Shown here: positions 5,761 to 35,615 of the stretch, piece after piece
Layout of the letters: each line of letters starts with the position of its first letter
How positions within the stretch are numbered: position 1 is the stretch's first letter
Source: Halobellus litoreus
GTDB lineage: Archaea; Halobacteriota; Halobacteria; Halobacteriales; Haloferacaceae
Reading direction: 5' to 3'
DNA: 64,000 bases
Assembly (NCBI RefSeq): GCF_024464595.1
Contig: NZ_JANHAW010000005.1
Coordinates: 1-64,000 of the forward strand
Position numbers and translations under genes: made by a program
The notes under the pieces: generated by a model
Database searches by the model: none
What the model saw: the letters and a program-made list of their open reading frames with translations, nothing else
What the model was told of the DNA's origin: nothing

Positions 5761-5790
5761 TTTTTGTCGCCCCCCGACAGGTGAAGGGGC
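5761..5790 (+). promoter_or_regulatory. Leader hairpin, copy 1 (TTTGTC-C5/G4 family)
   Basis: TTTTTGTCG is followed by a C-run, a short loop containing CAGGTGAA and the complementary GGGGC. It lies 39 bases before the ATG of the MoxR-like gene. It is the first of about thirteen copies in the window; the family is described in the findings. Confidence 0.7.
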
Positions 5791-5829: not shown

Positions 5830-7434
5830 ATGTCCTCAGCATCCACCGCGAGTGGCGACACCACTCCCGAAGGCCAGGTTGTCCTCTCACACCTCGTGAA
5901 CCGACTCCTCCAACGTGAAGGAGGCAACGTCCCTGTCGAGCGAGTGGCGCTACGAGTGTCCGACTACGTCGACCTCTCCGACCAGGACGCCGCCGACCTC
6001 ATCGACGAGGGGGACGACGCCGGTATTTACACGCTAGATCGCTCTTCGAGCGGGAACGCCACCATCACCGGCGTTTCACCACAGGGGACGGAACCCGAGG
6101 TCATCACCGATGCCTTCGGCGAACTCCAACAAGACACCGACGTTGACTTCCGCATGATCGAAGTCGTGACCGACACGATTAATGACGCCCTCCAAGACGC
6201 CGGGTACGACGCCTTCGAGTCGCTCGCGGACGCCAACGTTGACGACATCGCCGGCCTCACCAGCACGCTCACCGAGAGCCGCGCCGAGAACCTCCTCAAA
6301 GAGGCCGCCACGCACGTCCCCGTTGGACTCCGCCTCGCGAAGAACGCCGCCACCTACTACGACCAGCGGATGGACCCCGACACCGAACGGGCTGCCGCTC
6401 GCGTCACCGACCTCTCGCTCGTCACAGATTCCGTCGGAGAACCTCTGTACCGTTCCGAGGGGTGGGAGCCCGACGACGAGCGAGGAATGTACGTTTCCGA
6501 CATCGGCCGCAACGCCGGGAGTCCTGTCCCCACAGGCCTGCACATTCTTGACGATCCCGACTACCCGAGCGTCCCGAAGGCCGCGACTCACCCCGACGCA
6601 GCCTATGACGCGCTCTCGGTCGACGACAACGGCGAGGTCGTCCCACCAGCCGTCCCCATCGACCCACGCTTCCAGGTCCCCCTCGATGAACTCATCGCGA
6701 AGAAACTCGCTCGTGGCCTCGTCCCGATTCGGGTGGTCGGGCCGCGTGGGTCGGGGAAGAATTACCTTCTCAAGTATCTGTGCCACAAGACAAACCGGGG
6801 CTACCAGTCAATCGATGTCGACCGAGCGACCGAACCCGAAGACCTCTTCGGCCCGCTCGTCCCGGATGGCGATGTCATCGTTCCTCGCAACGGCGCCGTG
6901 AAACAGGGCCTTCTGAACGGCGATACGATTGTCATCAACGAGTTCCCCGTCATGCAGGCCGGCGCTGCCATCGCGTTACACCGACTCTTGAACGAGGGGA
7001 CGCTCTTGGTGAAGAGTCACGGTGAACTCGTTGAGCCCCACCCGTCGGCCCGCCTCGTCATCACTATGAACCCGCCGACCCGCGAGTACCGGGATTCGGA
7101 GCCGATGAACTCGGCGACGAGAGGCCGCTTCCGCTCGTTCGAGCAGCCCTACATCCAGGATGTTGAGGAAGAAGTGGATACGCTCGATAGGCAGGTGAAC
7201 AGCGGTAAACCCGTCGTGGATCGACCGACGCTCAAGAAAATTGTCCAGTTCGCCCACCAGACCCGAGAGAACGAGTCCTGGCCCACGCTCTCGACGCGGA
7301 ATCTCACGATCCTCTGTGAACACATCGAAGACGGAGTGTACCCGAAGGCCGCCGTCAAGGGGGTGCTCTGGGGAGTAGCCGAACCAAACCAGTACCCCGA
7401 GGACGCCTACGAAACCCTGAATGACTACCTCTAG
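5830..7434 (+). CDS. MoxR/CobS-like AAA+ ATPase
   Basis: This protein has 534 residues. The first 290 form a poorly conserved acidic region that includes a helix-hairpin-helix-like stretch (about 110-155, FESLADANVDDIAGLTST). The AAA+ module follows: Walker A GPRGSGKN (about 304-311), Walker B DTIVINEF (about 365-372) and a sensor segment LVITMNPPTREY (about 410-421). Asn replaces the usual Thr/Ser at the end of Walker A. MoxR-type ATPases remodel or activate partners that carry VWA domains, and the next gene is such a partner. The start is the first ATG after leader copy 1. Confidence 0.85.
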   Translation: MSSASTASGDTTPEGQVVLSHLVNRLLQREGGNVPVERVALRVSDYVDLSDQDAADLIDEGDDAGIYTLDRSSSGNATITGVSPQGTEPEVITDAFGELQQDTDVDFRMIEVVTDTINDALQDAGYDAFESLADANVDDIAGLTSTLTESRAENLLKEAATHVPVGLRLAKNAATYYDQRMDPDTERAAARVTDLSLVTDSVGEPLYRSEGWEPDDERGMYVSDIGRNAGSPVPTGLHILDDPDYPSVPKAATHPDAAYDALSVDDNGEVVPPAVPIDPRFQVPLDELIAKKLARGLVPIRVVGPRGSGKNYLLKYLCHKTNRGYQSIDVDRATEPEDLFGPLVPDGDVIVPRNGAVKQGLLNGDTIVINEFPVMQAGAAIALHRLLNEGTLLVKSHGELVEPHPSARLVITMNPPTREYRDSEPMNSATRGRFRSFEQPYIQDVEEEVDTLDRQVNSGKPVVDRPTLKKIVQFAHQTRENESWPTLSTRNLTILCEHIEDGVYPKAAVKGVLWGVAEPNQYPEDAYETLNDYL

Positions 7435-7449
7435 AGGAACCAGCGGCGC

Positions 7450-7486
7450 TTGTTTGTGCGCCCCCGTGACGACGAGGGGGCTGCAC
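7450..7486 (+). promoter_or_regulatory. Leader hairpin, copy 2
   Basis: GTGCGCCCCC and GGGGGCTGCAC pair around a ten-base loop directly after TTGTTT. This is the longest stem in the family. It sits 46 bases before the ATG of the VWA gene. Confidence 0.7.
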
Positions 7487-7532: not shown

Positions 7533-10526
7533 ATGTCAATTCAACATCACCAGGTCGTCGACGATCTCAAACCCAAGGCCGCTGTGAGATCACGAATTTC
7601 TCCGCAGCGGGCCGACCGTCTCCGAGAGTTCATCCTCGGTCACCTGCCAAGGGGTCTGACCGTCGACGTCGTCATTTCCTCCAGCGTCCAGACCGCTGCC
7701 GTTCTCCCCGTCGATGTCGATGCTATCGTCTCTTCAGATGCGACCGAAATCGAACGCGCTCAGGCCGAACAGTTGCTCGCCGGCGTCGACACTGATTACC
7801 TGGTGATGGTGACTGGGACCGAGGCCGACCTCACCCGCATCCCGCTCAACGACCAGCTCACCGCCGACCACGCCCACCAGTTCGGCCTTGCCTTTCACGA
7901 ACTGCTCCACATACTCAAGACAGCCATCACAGCGATATCAGAACTCCTCGAGACCGAGGTCGATGTCAAATACCATGCCCAGGTTCACGACCTCATCAAC
8001 ATCGTCGAGGATGGCGCCATCGAGTCCGAAGCCATCCACGGCGAGAATTTCAGCGATAACGCCGGAATTCGACTTGAACTCACTCGACGGCTCCACTCGC
8101 AGACGCCCAAGGACATCCCAGACGGTGAGGAAATTCGCTACTCGTTCTGGGACGCTGTGACGAGTTGTCTGTACGACGAAGCCATCTATCCGACGGGAAC
8201 GACCGATGTTCTTCTCGACGAAAACGATTCTCGCATACAATTCAAGAGTGATGCGGATCGGGATGCGTTCGAGGCGATCCACACAGAACTGTGTACGCTG
8301 TCTGACGACGTACACGCGATTCGGAGCGCCGACCGATCAGACATCACTCACAACCACGACAAGACCGCCTCGATCCGTCGAGCGCGACGAGTTATCCAGA
8401 CATGGACCGACCACATTCAGCCCGTCCTCGAGGCCGACAAAGAGGACGAAGAAGAGCAGGAACAGGACGTCCAGGTCAACCAACAGGTCGGTGGTAAGAA
8501 CGAAGGTGGGTATCAAGACCAGTCCAGCGGGGATGGGAGTGACGAGGCCGCAGAATTGCTGGAAATGCCATCCAACTCTGATGCAGGCGACGACAGTTCC
8601 AGTAGAAACGAAGGGCTACAGGACGCTGAAGAGGGCGCTAGTACAGATGAGGATTCACAGCGGCTGTCACAGACCCAGCCCCCGACGCAACTCCCCGAAG
8701 ACTTCGATCCGACCGACGTCTCGCTATCGCGGGAAGCAACGAGTGACCCCCATCAAAACGTCTTCGAACAACCGCCGGTCACGGACGATCCCAGCCCCAC
8801 CGACGTCGGCGAGATCGACAATCATGGGGAAGAGGACGAACAGAACGACGAGCAGGCCCCCAGCATTGGCGAGGGCGCACAGGGGCACCACCGCGATGGT
8901 AAAGACGGACGTGACGCAGAAGCCGACGTGGAGAGAACTGACGCCGCTCAGGACACGGGAGGCGACAGTGATGGTGAGGGAGATGTCAAAGACAAGGCGG
9001 GTGGAGAGAATGATGGACAGGCCGAGTCAGAATCCGAACCGTTGAGTCGGGCTCAAGCTATCGCGCAGGCCGCTGACCGTGCCCGACAACGCGAGCAGGA
9101 ACGACAGGGTGGGAATCCAGGCCAGAGGACGAACACCGAGACAGAAGCGCCGTCGAAGTCACCATCTCCTGAGGAGGACATGGGTGACGTCCCGAGATCC
9201 GCCGCTTCGAGTTCCATCGACACTCAGCAACAGAACCAAGACCAGCTCACTCTCGGGAAATTCGGCGGCGATTCCCAGGATAATCACGAGGGTACAAATC
9301 CCGATACGAGCGAAGGCGAGACCGACGACGAGCACTCCTCGGACGGATTAGATGAGGCATGCCAGTCGGACCAAGCGGATACCCCGACGCTCGAGACGGC
9401 GAGCAGCAGCGCGGCGGGAGACATCGACACCGACGCACGTTCGGAATCGGAGTCCGGTTCAGAACCCGAAGCAGAATCAGACTCTGAATCGGGGCAAGAC
9501 ATCCCGGAAGGACCTGCCCATACCGAGAGTTCGACGAGGTCGCCCGACGAAGACGAAGCCACCTACGAGAATGCCCTTGCCGGAGACGAACGCGCTGCCC
9601 ACCGTGAATCCGAGCGCGAAGGTATCGACGAACAGGCCCTCGAAGAAGAACTCTCCGCGCTAGCTGACCAGCTCGAACGCTCCGCCCGCCAGCAAGCACA
9701 GAACGGAAAAGATCAGAACAATGGGGAGGGTGGACAATACGGTGGGCCTGGAAGTCTCGAGGATCTCGAGATTCTCCCCATCAGCGACAATCTCGCCCTC
9801 AATCGCGAGTGGGGCGCTATCGAAGAAGGGGCTGATCGGGTCGCAGAAACTCTCGAAATGTACCTTCGACTCGACCGCCGCAAAAACGTGCGACGTGGTC
9901 TTTCTTCTGGGGCGTACGATCCGCGGGCCGGTCATCGCCTCGCTATCGGTGACCCCCGCGTGTGTAAATCCCGAACCCTTGGGGACGAAAAGCAGTACGC
10001 GCTCGTCCTCATCCTCGATCGATCTGGATCGATGCGGCGGGGGTCACCGCCGAAGATCGAGATCGCAACGCAAGCCCTTGCCCGGTTCGCACTCGCCGCC
10101 GAGAACCTCGGGATTCGCGTCGCCATCACTGACTTCTACCGTGGCGAGGCACGTCTCGTGAAGCCATTCAGCATAGAAACGCGCCACGTCCAGGCGAATC
10201 TCCTTGATACGACGTGTGGTGGCGGGACGCCCCTCGCGGATGCGGTTATCCTCGCCCGTGAACTCGTCGAAGCACAACGCGACGAGCCGCTGATAATCAC
10301 TGTGACGGATGACAACCCCTCTTCGACGGACGATGTCATCGACCAGATCCGGCGGTCGCACGCACCCGTGTGTTCGCTCACTATCGCGACCGATTGCCAA
10401 CCCGGGTCGCTCTCTGACAGCGCCTCCGAACTCTCCCGGTACTACGAACGCCAAGAAGCCGTTTACACACCCGATCGTCTCGACGACAGACTCGATCAGT
10501 TCGCGAGTCTGCTAGCGGGGTTGTGA
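7533..10526 (+). CDS. CobT-like protein: putative metallopeptidase domain, acidic linker, VWA domain
   Basis: This protein has 997 residues. An N-terminal domain carries FHELLHIL (about residues 120-127), a zincin-like HExxH, with a possible third ligand Glu in NIVEDGAIE about 35 residues on; this matches the DUF2201/CobT-like putative metallopeptidase pattern. Residues about 300-740 are a low-complexity Asp/Glu/Ser/Gln linker. The C-terminal VWA domain has a MIDAS: LDRSGSM (about 825), GGTPLADA (Thr, about 896) and VTDDNPS (about 921). Such proteins pair with MoxR ATPases, as here with the upstream gene. The substrate is unknown; cobalt chelation is only one use of this pair, and no other cob genes are nearby. 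Confidence 0.85.
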   Translation: MSIQHHQVVDDLKPKAAVRSRISPQRADRLREFILGHLPRGLTVDVVISSSVQTAAVLPVDVDAIVSSDATEIERAQAEQLLAGVDTDYLVMVTGTEADLTRIPLNDQLTADHAHQFGLAFHELLHILKTAITAISELLETEVDVKYHAQVHDLINIVEDGAIESEAIHGENFSDNAGIRLELTRRLHSQTPKDIPDGEEIRYSFWDAVTSCLYDEAIYPTGTTDVLLDENDSRIQFKSDADRDAFEAIHTELCTLSDDVHAIRSADRSDITHNHDKTASIRRARRVIQTWTDHIQPVLEADKEDEEEQEQDVQVNQQVGGKNEGGYQDQSSGDGSDEAAELLEMPSNSDAGDDSSSRNEGLQDAEEGASTDEDSQRLSQTQPPTQLPEDFDPTDVSLSREATSDPHQNVFEQPPVTDDPSPTDVGEIDNHGEEDEQNDEQAPSIGEGAQGHHRDGKDGRDAEADVERTDAAQDTGGDSDGEGDVKDKAGGENDGQAESESEPLSRAQAIAQAADRARQREQERQGGNPGQRTNTETEAPSKSPSPEEDMGDVPRSAASSSIDTQQQNQDQLTLGKFGGDSQDNHEGTNPDTSEGETDDEHSSDGLDEACQSDQADTPTLETASSSAAGDIDTDARSESESGSEPEAESDSESGQDIPEGPAHTESSTRSPDEDEATYENALAGDERAAHRESEREGIDEQALEEELSALADQLERSARQQAQNGKDQNNGEGGQYGGPGSLEDLEILPISDNLALNREWGAIEEGADRVAETLEMYLRLDRRKNVRRGLSSGAYDPRAGHRLAIGDPRVCKSRTLGDEKQYALVLILDRSGSMRRGSPPKIEIATQALARFALAAENLGIRVAITDFYRGEARLVKPFSIETRHVQANLLDTTCGGGTPLADAVILARELVEAQRDEPLIITVTDDNPSSTDDVIDQIRRSHAPVCSLTIATDCQPGSLSDSASELSRYYERQEAVYTPDRLDDRLDQFASLLAGL

Positions 10527-11061: not shown

Positions 11062-11100
11062 GTCCTACGCTACGTAGACACCAGGTTTGTTATGTAGGAC
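11062..11100. promoter_or_regulatory. Inverted 12-bp box pair A (spacing 27)
   Basis: GTCCTACGCTAC at 11062-11073 and GTTATGTAGGAC at 11089-11100 form an imperfect inverted repeat whose arms start 27 bp apart. The pair lies just upstream of leader copy 3 and between divergent genes. The symmetry suggests a dimeric regulator. Confidence 0.65.
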
Positions 11101-11114
11101 ATCTTCCGAGCCAA

Positions 11115-11144
11115 TTTTTCACCCCCCGCGTCGGTAGTGGGGCG
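11115..11144 (+). promoter_or_regulatory. Leader hairpin, copy 3
   Basis: TTTTTCACCCCCC, a loop with GTCGGTAGT, then GGGGCG. It ends 42 bases before the ATG at 11187 and 14 bases after box pair A. Confidence 0.65.
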
Positions 11145-11186: not shown

Positions 11187-12203
11187 ATGTCCTGTCGAAC
11201 CATCCACTCAGCCGACGGCAGTGTGCCTCACCTGGCGTTGCCACCAGGCGCACTCGCCCACATGGACCGTGACTACGACTACAAAGTTGATCGCGATCCA
11301 CCGAACGTCGAACCCATCGAACACCAGATTCGCCTCGACTTCATGGGCGGTGGGCCTGTCCGCCGCGACCAGCTCCTCGGAGACTACAATCCCTGGTCAT
11401 ACAAGGCCGAGACTCCCACAACCCATCCCTGGCGGGGGGTAAAACAGAAGCCGAGGGGCCTCGATTACGCCGAAGCATCGTGTGATGTACGGATTCGCGA
11501 AGAGGAGAAGTTCTACGAACACGCCGACGATGACACTGTTCTGGTCGACGCACCTGCCTACCTTGCCGCACGTATCCGCGAAGCTAGTGAGCAATCCGAC
11601 CCTCACGAAGCCGTCCGTGAGGTGCGTAAGGACCGGGAGAAGTGGTATCAGGAACTCATCCCCGGCGCGAATCTCCGCCAGATCCTCAAGGAGTCGTCCT
11701 ATGGGTCGCTGATCGAGAAGTGCATCGGACCCACTCCCGACGCCAACCACCTCCTCGAGCACAACGCCTTCGTGGGGATGGTCATCGTTGACGACGACAC
11801 CAACCCCGACGCAATCGCCCGAGAACATGACATCGACTCGGTGTACGTCCTCCCGGAATCTGTGCTCTCACACGCGAACACTGACGAACCAGTGGCTCTC
11901 GCTGACTACGGTATCGAACTCCCCGCACCCGTCCTTGTCGGAGAATACGACAGCGGGAGCCAGTACCCATTCATCCCGTGGGGGGACGCCCTCACCTGTT
12001 CGTGCCCGTACAAGCAATCCGCTCCCTTCCGCGTGATGTGTAAACACGAACTTCTCGCGACCATCGTCTGTGGCGACCACGACTCAATATTCATCCCTCT
12101 CACCCGGGGTATCCACGTCCCTCACCGCGCTCGTCGATTCGCTAGTCCCGAGATCGCCGTTTCTCACCAGCCGCGAACAGCGGGAGGTCACCCGTCGCCA
12201 TGA
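11187..12203 (+). CDS. SWIM zinc-finger protein
   Basis: This protein has 338 residues. Near the C-terminus (about 270-288) lies CSCPYKQSAPFRVMCKHE, a CxCx(n)CxH SWIM finger, a small zinc domain that binds DNA or protein. The rest of the protein is acidic and unrecognised. It is the first gene of a three-gene operon: its TGA overlaps the ATG of the methylase-like gene by four bases. Box pair A and leader copy 3 precede it. Confidence 0.8.
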   Translation: MSCRTIHSADGSVPHLALPPGALAHMDRDYDYKVDRDPPNVEPIEHQIRLDFMGGGPVRRDQLLGDYNPWSYKAETPTTHPWRGVKQKPRGLDYAEASCDVRIREEEKFYEHADDDTVLVDAPAYLAARIREASEQSDPHEAVREVRKDREKWYQELIPGANLRQILKESSYGSLIEKCIGPTPDANHLLEHNAFVGMVIVDDDTNPDAIAREHDIDSVYVLPESVLSHANTDEPVALADYGIELPAPVLVGEYDSGSQYPFIPWGDALTCSCPYKQSAPFRVMCKHELLATIVCGDHDSIFIPLTRGIHVPHRARRFASPEIAVSHQPRTAGGHPSP

Positions 12204-13422: not shown

Positions 13423-13461
13423 GTCCTACGTTACAGTACGGACGCGAGCGTAGCGTAGGAC
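13423..13461. promoter_or_regulatory. Inverted 12-bp box pair B (spacing 27)
   Basis: GTCCTACGTTAC at 13423-13434 and GTAGCGTAGGAC at 13450-13461. Arm starts are 27 bp apart, as in pair A. The right arm abuts leader copy 4. Confidence 0.7.
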
Positions 13462-13464
13462 CAG

Positions 13465-13492
13465 TTTTGTCGCCCCCGTGCCGGTGAGGGAC
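13465..13492 (+). promoter_or_regulatory. Leader hairpin, copy 4
   Basis: TTTTGTCGCCCCC, loop GTGCCGGTGA, then GGGAC. It ends eight bases before the ATG at 13501. Confidence 0.7.
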
Positions 13493-13500
13493 GTACAAAC

Positions 13501-13836
13501 ATGACCTATGAAGTCGCAGAAGACGCGCCTGAACGCACCCGTAGTGAAGTAGAACAGCTCCACGAACTCGCGGTCAACACGTTTGGCTACGCCACCGACC
13601 ACGTCCTCTTCACCGCTCACGGCGACGGGACGATCTCCGGTCGAATCGCCCTCCCTACCGGCCGTCCGTACGATGACACGGACGACGATCGGGAGCGCAC
13701 AACACTCCACGACCGAATCGCCCGTCGCTTTCAGAACAACAACGACACCGATCCCGACCCACCCGCCGTCTGCGCACCCATCACCCCAGACGCACCGAGC
13801 GCGAATATCCCGGACGAAGCGCAAGCCAGTGCATGA
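13501..13836 (+). CDS. Hypothetical protein, 111 aa
   Basis: The N-terminal 65 residues look folded, with alternating strands and a helix around RSEVEQLHELAVNTFGYATDHVLF, and the tail is acidic and proline-rich. I do not recognise a family. It is the first gene of a three-gene operon whose members overlap by ATGA, preceded by box pair B and leader copy 4. Confidence 0.7.
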   Translation: MTYEVAEDAPERTRSEVEQLHELAVNTFGYATDHVLFTAHGDGTISGRIALPTGRPYDDTDDDRERTTLHDRIARRFQNNNDTDPDPPAVCAPITPDAPSANIPDEAQASA

Positions 13837-14700: not shown

Positions 14701-14725
14701 CCTCCGTTTGTCGCTCGCTGGAGGG
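14701..14725 (+). promoter_or_regulatory. Leader element, degenerate copy 5
   Basis: CGTTTGTCGCTCGCTGGAGGG keeps the TTTGTC and GGAGGG parts but lacks the C-run. Here CCTCC upstream of TTTGTC could pair with GGAGG instead. It lies about 18 bases before the ATG at 14744. Confidence 0.4.
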
Positions 14726-14743
14726 TGCGCGAGATCAGAGACG

Positions 14744-17302: not shown

Positions 17303-17334
17303 CTCGTTTGTCGCCCCCGGACGCGGTGCGGGGA
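17303..17334 (+). promoter_or_regulatory. Leader hairpin, copy 6
   Basis: CTCGTTTGTCGCCCCC, loop GGACGCGGTGC, then GGGGA. The ATG at 17418 is 84 bases downstream, one of the longest gaps in the family. Confidence 0.65.
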
Positions 17335-20131: not shown

Positions 20132-20161
20132 CTGTTTGTGGCCCCCGAGACGGTGGAGGAG
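20132..20161 (+). promoter_or_regulatory. Leader hairpin, copy 7
   Basis: CTGTTTGTGGCCCCC, loop GAGACGGTG, then GGAGGA. It is followed after 10 bases by the ATG of a 17-codon ORF. Confidence 0.65.
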
Positions 20162-20171
20162 TCCAAACAAG

Positions 20172-20225
20172 ATGGCAACCACCAGCCGCAGTACAAACCG
20201 GCGAATATACGAGGTCGTTAGATGA
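20172..20225 (+). CDS. Possible 17-aa leader peptide
   Basis: ATG at 20172 opens MATTSRSTNRRIYEVVR, basic and unlike the acidic neighbours. Its TGA overlaps the ATG of the next gene (ATGA at 20222-20225). The overlap suggests translational coupling, so the peptide may matter only as a way to deliver ribosomes to the next gene. Confidence 0.4.
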   Translation: MATTSRSTNRRIYEVVR

Positions 20226-22228: not shown

Positions 22229-22258
22229 TTTTTGTCGGCGGCGGAGCCGTGCGCCGCC
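22229..22258 (+). promoter_or_regulatory. Leader hairpin, copy 8 (re-coded stem)
   Basis: The TTTTTGTC part is kept, but the stem is GGCGGCG (22237-22243) pairing with CGCCGCC (22252-22258) around an eight-base loop, instead of the usual C-run and G-run. The pairing is preserved although the bases are not. The ATG is 27 bases downstream. Confidence 0.65.
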
Positions 22259-22285: not shown

Positions 22286-23488
22286 ATGGTGAGTTCCAAT
22301 ACCAGTTCAGTCGAGAGCATCGGCCACGGCCAACTCGACCTCTCCACGTACCTCTCGCCGGCGACTCTTGACACACTCGAGGACAGACACCGGGCCTCGG
22401 GAGGCGAGCATTCCGACCACCGGTCCGAGATCGAGGCCGACAGCAACACCGAACGAGAACGCGAAGAGGACGCGCTTCCTATCGAAGTCGCTCGTCGTGC
22501 CGAGTACATCGGGTTCCTTCATCGAGCCCCGTTTGCGACTGAGGCATACGCCCTCGGATTCGTTACCGGCGCTCGCGAGGACTGTCGGATTCAGGATAGC
22601 CATCTCCGCAACGTTGACGTCCCGATCCTCATGCTCGACAACGACTTCAATCGGCCCGACCTCGATCGGTATCTCACCCGCTTCCGTGAGGTTGAGCCCG
22701 AAATCGGTGTCGTTGGCGATGCCCGCACTCCTGAGGAAGCACACACGTTTGTCGACGCCGCCCGCGAACTCAAATCTGACTACCCAGACGCGACCATCAT
22801 CATCGTCCCGAAGTGTCGCGAGGCCATCGATATCGTCGCCAACGCTGATATCCCCGGGGAATCGCTCGTCCTCGGATACGCGATGGGGCGTTCAAATATC
22901 AAAGCGTGGCACTTCTCGGATATCGCCAACTGGCGCGGTCACCGTGTGCATCTCCTTGGAGCCAGCCCGACGAAGCAATGGCGCGTCATCCAGGAGCTCA
23001 CCCAACCGAATCTCACAGGGGACCCGCCTGCGGACATCATCGGTCTCGATTGGAACGGCCCGCAGGGTATCGCCTACAAAGGCGAATCCTGGTCACGCGA
23101 CGGGTGGCAAGACGCTGACTTCCTCACCATCCGCGAGACCGTCCGTCGAAGCCTCCGTGAGATGCGAGCATTCTGGGAGGAACGTGGAGTGTGGCCCTCC
23201 GAGGGGAAGACGCCAATCGAACGCCTCGAGCCCGCCGTCAAAGAACCGGACGACCCTATCTGGGCTGCCAACGGAGGGGATCTCAGCGATCCCGATCCGC
23301 TTGGGTCACCCGATGAGTGGGCAGAACTAGTGGACTACGAGGACGAAGATGGCCCCTATCCCATCGAGCAGGCCATCATCGTCACCTACGAAGACGGGCG
23401 CACTTTCGCATATCGGACACAGACCGAGCGCAACTACGTCGAATACCACGAAGGGCTCTGGGACGAGGTCGTGGACGAGCGGCCGTAA
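22286..23488 (+). CDS. DUF6610-like TIM-barrel protein, second TGT/DpdA-like candidate
   Basis: This protein has 400 residues. After 65 acidic residues the segment PILMLDNDFNRPDLDRYL, TIIIVPKCREAIDIV, SLVLGYAMGRSN, HRVHLLGASP and ADIIGLDWNGPQGIA gives the strand-then-loop order of a TIM barrel like that of TGT/DpdA proteins; the Asp in IIGLDWNG could be the nucleophile. It matches what I know as haloarchaeal DUF6610. The C-terminal 100 residues are a separate acidic part. The protein differs clearly from the 14744-15961 product, so the block carries two barrels of this kind. Confidence 0.65.
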   Translation: MVSSNTSSVESIGHGQLDLSTYLSPATLDTLEDRHRASGGEHSDHRSEIEADSNTEREREEDALPIEVARRAEYIGFLHRAPFATEAYALGFVTGAREDCRIQDSHLRNVDVPILMLDNDFNRPDLDRYLTRFREVEPEIGVVGDARTPEEAHTFVDAARELKSDYPDATIIIVPKCREAIDIVANADIPGESLVLGYAMGRSNIKAWHFSDIANWRGHRVHLLGASPTKQWRVIQELTQPNLTGDPPADIIGLDWNGPQGIAYKGESWSRDGWQDADFLTIRETVRRSLREMRAFWEERGVWPSEGKTPIERLEPAVKEPDDPIWAANGGDLSDPDPLGSPDEWAELVDYEDEDGPYPIEQAIIVTYEDGRTFAYRTQTERNYVEYHEGLWDEVVDERP

Positions 23489-23498
23489 CGGTCGCCCG

Positions 23499-23546
23499 GT
23501 CCTACGTTACGGTGCGAACTGTCGGTGTCCGTATGTTGCGTAGGGC
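23499..23546. promoter_or_regulatory. Inverted 12-bp box pair C (spacing 36)
   Basis: GTCCTACGTTAC at 23499-23510 and GTTGCGTAGGGC at 23535-23546. Arm starts are 36 bp apart, 9 bp more than in pairs A, B and D. Confidence 0.65.
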
Positions 23547-23578
23547 TCGATTTGTCCGGCCCCCGCACGGCGGAGGCC
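23547..23578 (+). promoter_or_regulatory. Leader hairpin, copy 9
   Basis: CGATTTGTCCGGCCCCC, loop GCACGGC, then GGAGGCC. It ends six bases before the ATG at 23585 and directly follows box pair C. Confidence 0.7.
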
Positions 23579-28595: not shown

Positions 28596-28626
28596 CTCGT
28601 TTGTCGTCCCCCGCTTCGGTGGAGGG
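28596..28626 (+). promoter_or_regulatory. Leader hairpin, copy 11
   Basis: CTCGTTTGTCGTCCCCC, loop GCTTCGGT, then GGAGGGA. It ends ten bases before the ATG at 28637. Confidence 0.7.
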
Positions 28627-29390: not shown

Positions 29391-29420
29391 CTCGTTTGTC
29401 ACCCCCGACATCCCGTGGGG
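29391..29420 (+). promoter_or_regulatory. Leader hairpin, copy 12, cut off from its gene
   Basis: CTCGTTTGTCACCCCC, loop GACATCCC, then GTGGGGA. The 1.6-kb transposon at 29482-31079 now separates it from the ATG at 31117; without the insertion the distance would be about 90 bases. Confidence 0.65.
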
Positions 29421-33242: not shown

Positions 33243-33290
33243 GTCCTACGTAACTATCCAAACGATATAGCCGAGATTGTAACGTAGGAC
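33243..33290. promoter_or_regulatory. Inverted 12-bp box pair E (spacing 36)
   Basis: GTCCTACGTAAC at 33243-33254 and GTAACGTAGGAC at 33279-33290. Arm starts are 36 bp apart, as in pair C. It lies between the divergent CoiA-like and SWIM genes. Confidence 0.7.
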
Positions 33291-33330: not shown

Positions 33331-33362
33331 TTTTTGTTTTCCCCCCGGAGCGTAGAGGGGCG
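33331..33362 (+). promoter_or_regulatory. Leader hairpin, copy 13
   Basis: TTTTTGTTTTCCCCCC, loop GGAGCGTAGA, then GGGGCG. The ATG at 33415 is 52 bases downstream. Confidence 0.6.
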
Positions 33363-33414
33363 ACACTAGAGGCACCTGCCAGTCGTGTGTAGCATCTCGA
33401 CGTGTCGTCGTCCC

Positions 33415-33960: not shown

Positions 33961-34310
33961 ATTATGCCAACAGGTTCAAAACTACGACACTTACCGGAGA
34001 CGTCTGCTGCGTAGTGGCCTGTGCTCCTCCAAAAGCATCGGCCACAGGGGAACACCCTCCAAGAAGTGCCTGAGTGACGAAGCCCACTCTCATTCTAACG
34101 GGAGCGAACCTGTCACTCGTCCGCGCAGACGTTCCTGACCGGGTGTCGTAGTCCTGTCGGAGTTGAATATACTGACTCACATGGTATATCCTTTGGCCCA
34201 ATCGACAGCCGATAGGCTGTTCCAGGGGAGGATCGACGAGACTCAGCTGATGATTGTGGGACTCACGTAAACAGCCTCGGGCCACCGCGCCCGAGGCTTT
34301 TCTAATTCCC
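33961..34310. other. Intergenic with the right end of the next TnpB element
   Basis: A perfect 9-bp stem (GCCTCGGGC 34274-34282, GCCCGAGGC 34289-34297) followed by TTTT lies just past the stop of the minus-strand tnpB. On the plus strand it reads like a terminator; given the position it is more likely the right-end/omega RNA hairpin of the element. Nothing else is recognised in 33961-34270. Confidence 0.5.
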
Positions 34311-35615
34311 TCAGTCGTGCGCTAACACTCCCTGCTCGGCAAGCGAGCGGGATGAGGTTGGGCGGCTTACACGCCCCGACCCGGACAGACGCACCAACCG
34401 AACCTGCGGTTGGGTTTTGTGAGTCCGGTAATTCGATTCGTCACCGTCGAGCTTCGCCTTCTCGCGCCACGCGATGTTCACTGAGGCATTCCGGTCGGCG
34501 TGGTCTTGCGCTACATCACACTCGTTGTTCGTACACCGAAACCGCCGTCCCTGCCGACTGCCACGTTCACCACAGCACGAACACGTCTTCGAGTTGTAGT
34601 ACGCGTCTACCGTATCCGTAGGAATCTCTCGCCACGTCGCCTTGTACGAGACAAACTTCTCGAACTTGTGGAACGGCAGTTTGTGCAACCGGCGGTTCAT
34701 ATATGTTCCGTACTTGATTTCGTCGCGGATACCGCTCATATCCTCGAACACGATAACCGGATTCGAGAACTGCTCTGCGAGCTCCACGACAGCACGGGAA
34801 AGCCGATGCAACACCCACTCGGTGAACCGCTCCTCCTTGTCACCGAGTTTCCGATGAATACTTGTCTTGCCGTGTTCCTGACAGCGTTTCGTGATCGTGT
34901 GGTAGCGTTGGCGTTCCTGCTTAACCCATCCGTAGTCGAGGACGAGTGTTCCCTTCGTCCGCATCGTCTCGCGGTCGAAGGCGGTGAGTGCGACGTTGCG
35001 CTCGTTGATGTCCACACCGACTACCGTATCGGCGGTATCGGGTTCGGGCACGTCGAACACGCGTGTAACCGTGACGTGTAAGTAATACACGCCATCGCGG
35101 TACAGGAGTTCGGCCTGCCCAACATCCACCTCGTCCGACGTGAGGGCGTCTCGCAGTTCGTCCATTGCGTCCGGTTCGCCGCGCAGGTGTCCGTTCACGT
35201 TCTTGTAGGGTTTCGGGCTGATGCGGAACTGGACGCGGTTCGTGTCGTCGTCCACGGTGAGGCGGTAGCCTTCCGTGTGCGCCATCACAAGTGGATACGC
35301 ACCAGATTTGTCCGTACTCGGCGGAGTCGGCTTCCCTCCGTCAGGGTCGTCTTGGTTCTCCCACCAGTCTTTGAGTGATTGGTAGGAGTCCCATGTTTGG
35401 AGGGCTTTGCCGACGACCGCGCACTTGTTGTTCCGTAGGAAGTCGTTGCGGTCAACCCCTTTCTGTATCTCGGTGCGATTGTACCCTTGTTGTTTGAGGC
35501 GGATGGTTTGGTTGAAGATCTCGCGTGAGGCGAGGCGGGCGTTGTGAAGCCACGATCGTTCACCAGACGCTATGTGGAGGCGCGTCCGGATCGTCTTCGT
35601 GGCTTCTTCACCCAT
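34311..35615 (-). CDS. tnpB: TnpB of an IS605-type element
   Basis: This protein has 434 residues. RuvC motifs GVDINERNVAL, VIVFEDMSGIRD and DHADRNASVNIA give the catalytic D-E-D, and CSCCGERG...CTNNEC is the zinc finger. The N-terminus (TIRTRLHIASGERSWLHNARLASREIFN) differs from the TnpB at 3943, so the two belong to different subgroups. The dead tnpA lies divergently 45 bases upstream. TnpB itself looks intact. Confidence 0.92.
   Translation of the reverse strand: MGEEATKTIRTRLHIASGERSWLHNARLASREIFNQTIRLKQQGYNRTEIQKGVDRNDFLRNNKCAVVGKALQTWDSYQSLKDWWENQDDPDGGKPTPPSTDKSGAYPLVMAHTEGYRLTVDDDTNRVQFRISPKPYKNVNGHLRGEPDAMDELRDALTSDEVDVGQAELLYRDGVYYLHVTVTRVFDVPEPDTADTVVGVDINERNVALTAFDRETMRTKGTLVLDYGWVKQERQRYHTITKRCQEHGKTSIHRKLGDKEERFTEWVLHRLSRAVVELAEQFSNPVIVFEDMSGIRDEIKYGTYMNRRLHKLPFHKFEKFVSYKATWREIPTDTVDAYYNSKTCSCCGERGSRQGRRFRCTNNECDVAQDHADRNASVNIAWREKAKLDGDESNYRTHKTQPQVRLVRLSGSGRVSRPTSSRSLAEQGVLAHD

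Follow-up and report, generated by a model that had tools for sequence, protein, structure and literature searches.

In a family of short leaders carried by haloarchaeal plasmids, selection appears to keep the pairing of the two hairpin arms and not their letters. This conclusion is well supported by comparisons of leader sequences. We infer that the leader probably works as RNA in the transcript, and we give about even chances to its being an mRNA hairpin element that controls plasmid backbone genes after transcription.

Leaders in the window

The window, that is, the whole 64-kb stretch of DNA that was analysed, is a contig of haloarchaeal plasmid type, with near-identical or related stretches on plasmids of Haloplanus, Halobellus, Halorarius, Halorientalis, Salinirubellus, Salinigranum and Haloglomus. 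It contains about 13 leader copies on the plus strand. In the leader layout, a T-rich box TTTNTC/G, with all four bases occurring at its fourth position, is followed after 0-4 bases by a hairpin and then by a gene start. The commonest stems are of the C-run/G-run type, and the 3' edge of the loop is usually GGUG-like. The copies, the gene led by copy 8 and a set of inverted repeats are listed below.

5761..5790, plus strand: copy 1, GCCCC/GGGGC; precedes the AAA ATPase gene 5830-7434 (AAA_5)
7453..7481, plus strand: copy 2, GCCCCC/GGGGGC; precedes the VWA gene 7533-10526
11063-11100: inverted repeat GTCCTACG/CGTAGGAC
11115..11144, plus strand: copy 3, box TTTTTC; precedes the gene 11187-12203
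13424-13461: inverted repeat of the same kind
13466..13496, plus strand: copy 4, C-run/G-run type; precedes the ORF 13501-13836
14707..14733, plus strand: copy 5, CTCGC/GCGAG, loop TGGAGGGTGC; precedes the DpdA-like gene (PF23859, 2e-20)
17307..17333, plus strand: copy 6, CCCCG/CGGGG
20135..20160, plus strand: copy 7, CC/GG, weakly paired in the window
22229..22258, plus strand: copy 8, read directly, with fold, uniqueness in the window and orthologs checked
22286..23488, plus strand: DUF6610 gene led by copy 8 (PF20314, 1.2e-59)
23500-23546: inverted repeat of the same kind
23551..23577, plus strand: copy 9, GGCC/GGCC, 13-base loop
25095..25121, plus strand: copy 10, GGGCC/GGCCC, 13-base loop
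28545-28582: inverted repeat of the same kind
28600..28626, plus strand: copy 11, GTCCC/GGGAT
29395..29420, plus strand: copy 12, CCCC/GGGG
33244-33290: inverted repeat of the same kind
33331..33364, plus strand: copy 13, CCCC/GGGG

The T-rich box of copy 8 is TTTTTGTC at 22229-22236 (five T at 22229-22233, GTC at 22234-22236). The 5' arm GGCGGCG (22237-22243) and the 3' arm CGCCGCC (22252-22258) form seven perfect pairs out of seven around the 8-base loop GAGCCGTG (22244-22251). The letters and coordinates of this hairpin agree exactly with the initial annotation, which also numbered the copy correctly as the eighth in order. Two other statements of the annotation have to be corrected. The box TTTTTGTC had been regarded as a kept motif; it occurs only twice in the window, which equals chance, and it is TTTGT, or more widely TTTNT plus a C or G, that is kept. 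Nor is copy 8 the lone deviant stem: copy 5 has a second wholly different one, and those of copies 9 and 10 are of the GGCC type.

An all-G/C 7-bp stem with an 8-base loop is found in the window at copy 8 only, and no such hairpin occurred across ten first-order Markov windows. RNA folding of the copy 8 34-mer alone gave -17.5 kcal/mol with a modest z-score of -1.94; the fold z-scores of single leader sequences span -2.1 to +0.6. A covariance model (R1) made from 30 hand-set leaders recovers most of the window copies, its information being too low for genome-wide use. Scanning by pairing score behind every TTTGT yielded only a modest excess, because most TTTGT are coding.

The inverted repeats, GTCCTACG ... 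CGTAGGAC with a loop of about 20-30, lie shortly upstream of copies 3, 4, 9, 11 and 13, and the remaining window copies are without them. On other plasmids the same place is taken by different repeats (TCCTACGCAACA/TGTTGCGTAGGA, TTAACCAACA/TGTTGGTTAA, GTTACCCCACA/TGTGGGGTAAC). Possibly, these repeats are operators that differ from plasmid to plasmid. A small unlisted ORF (MATTSRSTNRRIYEVVR, 20172-20225) starts 37 nt past the box of copy 7 and shares ATGA with the gene after it; on another plasmid (L081), where the ortholog of copy 7 has the stem CCTCC/GGAGG, the leader likewise has a homologous small ORF behind it. The window also contains sot2652 (RF02657), an annotated sense-overlapping RNA, at 34248-34432 on the minus strand, at the end of the TnpB-like gene 34311-35615.

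Conservation of arm pairing

For the swap test, leaders were picked by the box and position alone, and near duplicates were dropped. The leaders were cut after 12 or 14 bases, the 3' halves were dealt among them, and the best stem was refitted. In statistics that ignore the kinship remaining after removal of near duplicates, the mean stem score of 75 non-redundant leaders was 10.91 versus 7.20 (sd 0.56) for the swapped ones; 300 swaps all stayed below the observed value, the best giving 8.57. The same was obtained for the DUF6610 leaders only (13.02 versus 9.08, sd 0.84, 0/300) and for the plasmid-gene leaders only (10.32 versus 6.26, sd 0.75, 0/300). Earlier sets gave 0/200 for 36 plasmid leaders and 0/300 for 38 DUF6610 leaders, the latter being optimistic since these leaders had been picked by the best hairpin. 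Control boxes in the same upstream regions scored 5.4-6.3 versus 10.9 for the leaders, with the exception of one control pattern (G/C-T-N-TTT) that scored 10.7 and overlaps real leaders.

In the pair tables C-G is exchanged for G-C and/or T-A at every position or almost every one, although the stems in these tables were set by hand or by eye and hence the tables lean towards pairing. As MAFFT displaced the arms in the ortholog alignment (A4), pair types were counted by a script instead. Some leaders of group B pair poorly. The arms pair and covary ahead of a start codon, the feature by which a structured cis-acting mRNA leader is recognised. The claim that the fold itself is selected is borne out by the swaps in both the 75-leader and the DUF6610 sets, and by distant orthologous stems that differ yet pair.

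Copy 8 was compared with the leaders of the DUF6610 gene in Halorarius, Haloplanus GDY1, Salinirubellus and Salinigranum. These near orthologs, whose proteins are about 70% identical, all keep the inner six pairs GCGGCG/CGCCGC; the outermost pair is G-C, A.C, G.U or C.U, and the loop drifts. No covariation was seen among the close orthologs, the stem being invariant; thus, the wholesale stem change ascribed to copy 8 is not a change within its own lineage. In L037 and L038, relatives with about 62% protein identity, one or more stem pairs are lost. The leaders of distant DUF6610 homologs have the stems GCCCC/GGGGC, CGCCCC/GGGGCG, CGCGCC/GGCGCG, GGCGCGC/GCGCGCC, CACTC/GAGTG and GCCCT/AGGGC. The initial annotation had named unpaired stems at homologous loci as evidence against a selected fold. 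Such breaks do occur in L037 and L038, which partly agrees with that counter-evidence; the distant stems differ and still pair. A T-rich box with a hairpin precedes the DUF6610 gene in most genomes examined, and the gene family behind copy 3 likewise has varied paired leaders, some members being poorly paired.

On a Salinigranum plasmid, a small membrane-protein-like gene has a leader of the copy 8 stem type as well. Overall, the pattern of this stem type was found at ten places in 170 family genomes, and the reversed pattern at none. The positions listed for this second leader are:

L194 26601-26627 (NZ_CP026311.1 176601-176627), minus strand: stem of the copy 8 type, before the small membrane-protein-like gene
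G232:C3:117781-117807: leader of the copy 8 stem type

Since the same stem type leads a second gene, copy 8 represents a leader subtype and not a single replacement event. Upstream of some DUF6610 genes (L148, L153, L164, L177) a second, shorter hairpin stands after the leader hairpin and before the ATG; its stems are GAGTC/GACTC, GGAGTC/GACTCC and ATCAACCC/GGGTGAT, and it sometimes covers a GGTGAT motif.

Genes behind the leaders

Genes behind the leaders belong to the plasmid backbone. They encode an AAA ATPase, a VWA protein, a DpdA-like protein, DUF6610 and many small hypothetical proteins, and several of them are DNA-modification-like. On a complete Salinigranum plasmid the gene-associated leaders lie on one strand, from about 50 to 177 kb, adjoining backbone genes that include transcription factor B (TFB), AAA and VWA; a plasmid TFB gene carries a leader too (L086 1959). 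A Haloferax alexandrinus plasmid carries the leader too; this species is related to the laboratory species Haloferax volcanii, and its strain BNX82 has the DUF6610 leader. The same leader type precedes metallopeptidase-like genes (L177 4030-4090, L079 10316, L080 9202), which look ArdC-like. The first of these is annotated as ImmA/IrrE and lies on the H. alexandrinus plasmid, the other two being apparent relatives. No exact copy of the Natrinema-type leader was found in the viral contig set.

Association with genes was counted in six annotated plasmid regions containing 45 leader genes. All leaders but one (44/45) lie on the operon strand. A same-strand gap shorter than 25 nt precedes none of 35 leader genes versus 60 of 136 leaderless genes. 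In nearly half of the leader genes the start lies 34-38 nt past TTTGT. The distance from TTTGT to the start varies from 28 to 109 nt, and that from the box to the hairpin is nearly fixed.

The start codon of the DUF6610 gene lies 55 nt past the TTTGT of copy 8. DUF6610 genes are present in 140 of 391 genomes of the class, and no close relative of the copy 8 one was found in the viral contig set. No solved structure is related to DUF6610 by sequence. An AlphaFold model (mean pLDDT 72.8) gave only two Foldseek matches with E below 0.001, both tRNA-guanine transglycosylases (TGT). All 50 matches listed by VIA-align were of the same kind, with Z of about 14 over about 220 residues. Hence, the TGT fold is predicted for DUF6610. 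Compared by BLASTP, the two transglycosylase-like genes in the window are not significantly similar. Gene 69 of halovirus HVTV-1 (L190:2599-3759) is a full DUF6610 member (2.7e-56) and lies inside the preQ0 gene cluster of the virus. About 30% of G in HVTV-1 DNA is present as dPreQ1, yet no DpdA was found (PMC6884629). DUF6610 may be the missing transglycosylase of HVTV-1, for which it is a good candidate, a shared fold being no proof of activity.

Possible functions and comparison with known systems

As an mRNA element, the leader would present an unpaired U-rich box UUUNUC/G with a short hairpin directly after it, just before the gene start. An RNA-binding factor or the initiating ribosome would read it via the box and the loop, and the leader would set the expression of each backbone gene at translation start or by local mRNA processing. 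Copy 8 would do so for the DUF6610 (transglycosylase-fold) gene. We prefer this explanation because the many widely spaced internal genes of the mobile element would need another start signal; in Haloferax volcanii no more than 4 nt separate over 90% of distal operon genes from the gene before (PMC3986360). Moreover, some leaders have an inverted repeat upstream and others have none, as expected for an element acting in the transcript. Counted against it are the variable distance to the start, unusual for a ribosome-binding device, the broken pairs in L037 and L038, and poor pairing in copy 7 and some group B leaders. A bolder and rather doubtful version is that the leader is an internal translation-initiation element of haloarchaeal mobile elements, functionally like an archaeal IRES. 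In that case ribosomes that normally begin on leaderless mRNAs would initiate on individual internal genes within long plasmid transcripts. Little is known of structured cis-elements in haloarchaeal mRNAs, and at stake is how non-overlapping internal genes are translated where leaderless mRNAs dominate and Shine-Dalgarno (SD) is not used in 5'-UTRs. With a small covarying element before many backbone genes, on plasmids of many genera, the question can be tested by a simple reporter.

Several other explanations were weighed. That the conserved C-rich and G-rich blocks pair through consensus alone is highly improbable, even though C-run/G-run stems are the commonest and single-sequence fold z-scores are modest at best: swaps preserve the consensus and pairing falls far below the observed level, control boxes score much less apart from the pattern overlapping leaders, and the copy 8 stem, unlike its loop, persists in 70%-identical relatives. 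It is unlikely, if conceivable, that the leader is a promoter, with the T-rich box as a TATA-like variant for the plasmid's own TFB and transcription starting in or just after the hairpin. The plasmid TFB gene with its own leader, the fixed box-hairpin spacing combined with a variable start distance (as in a promoter with a variable 5'-UTR), the TATA-like appearance of TTTATC-type boxes in some homologs and the potential operators just upstream of some copies all agree with it. However, a promoter leaves the covarying arms unexplained, the fourth box base is free to vary, and nothing resembling a BRE or TATA block stands ahead of the box in a 42-leader profile.

A hairpin with U-rich sequence next to it could plausibly signal cleavage or pausing. 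The leader pairs these two features and sits between widely spaced genes, so that a nuclease cut or a transcription pause between genes of a long transcript deserves mention. We consider such a processing or attenuation site rather improbable, given that the T-run precedes the hairpin, hence no intrinsic terminator is formed, and that leaders also occur at genes with an upstream inverted repeat, which are apparent unit starts. A single-stranded DNA hairpin serving plasmid entry or replication, e.g., as a one-strand protein-binding or start site, would account for more than 100 kb of the Salinigranum plasmid having leaders on one strand only and for DNA-modification-like genes, of the kind wanted early, among those led. 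Since the leader-bearing backbone genes are co-directional, one strand is expected anyway, and the link to gene starts is tight; this explanation seems very unlikely to us. By eye, G.U and A.C changes are about equally frequent, and thus do not separate RNA from single-stranded DNA.

No Rfam 15 family matched a leader at the gathering threshold in the window, nor at E up to 5 in the 20-26 kb region. No published description of the leader was found in the literature searched, most subscription papers being outside that search. On these sequence searches the leader is filed as a putative structured leader outside the named families. An intrinsic terminator was ruled out by orientation, the T-run standing before the hairpin in every copy. 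The intergenic repeats of halovirus HF2 resemble the leaders in being repeated elements before genes of a haloarchaeal mobile element, but they have a conserved, AT-rich sequence and have been shown to act as promoters (PMC8707807), whereas the plasmid leader arms vary, are G/C-rich and have no upstream BRE/TATA-like block. Hence, a promoter repeat of the HF2 type was ruled out.

The likeness to hairpins that carry or mask SD is that many leader 3' arms hold GGTGA, GGAGG or GAGGG near the start codon. A five-base SD match (complement of anti-SD, 4-12 nt before the start) was found for 19 of 45 leader genes versus 35 of 178 others. In contrast, copies 5 and 8 have no SD-like motif in the 3' arm, and by eye no SD match precedes the start of the copy 8 gene. 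Moreover, the SD mechanism is not used in 5'-UTRs of H. volcanii (PMC3986360). For these reasons SD sequestration was dropped as a general mechanism. Autoregulatory leaders, e.g., those of ribosomal proteins, are likewise structured, covarying and located just upstream of a start codon; unlike them, the plasmid leader, which has no Rfam match, stands before dozens of unrelated genes, and this points to a signal common to them and not to one gene regulating itself.
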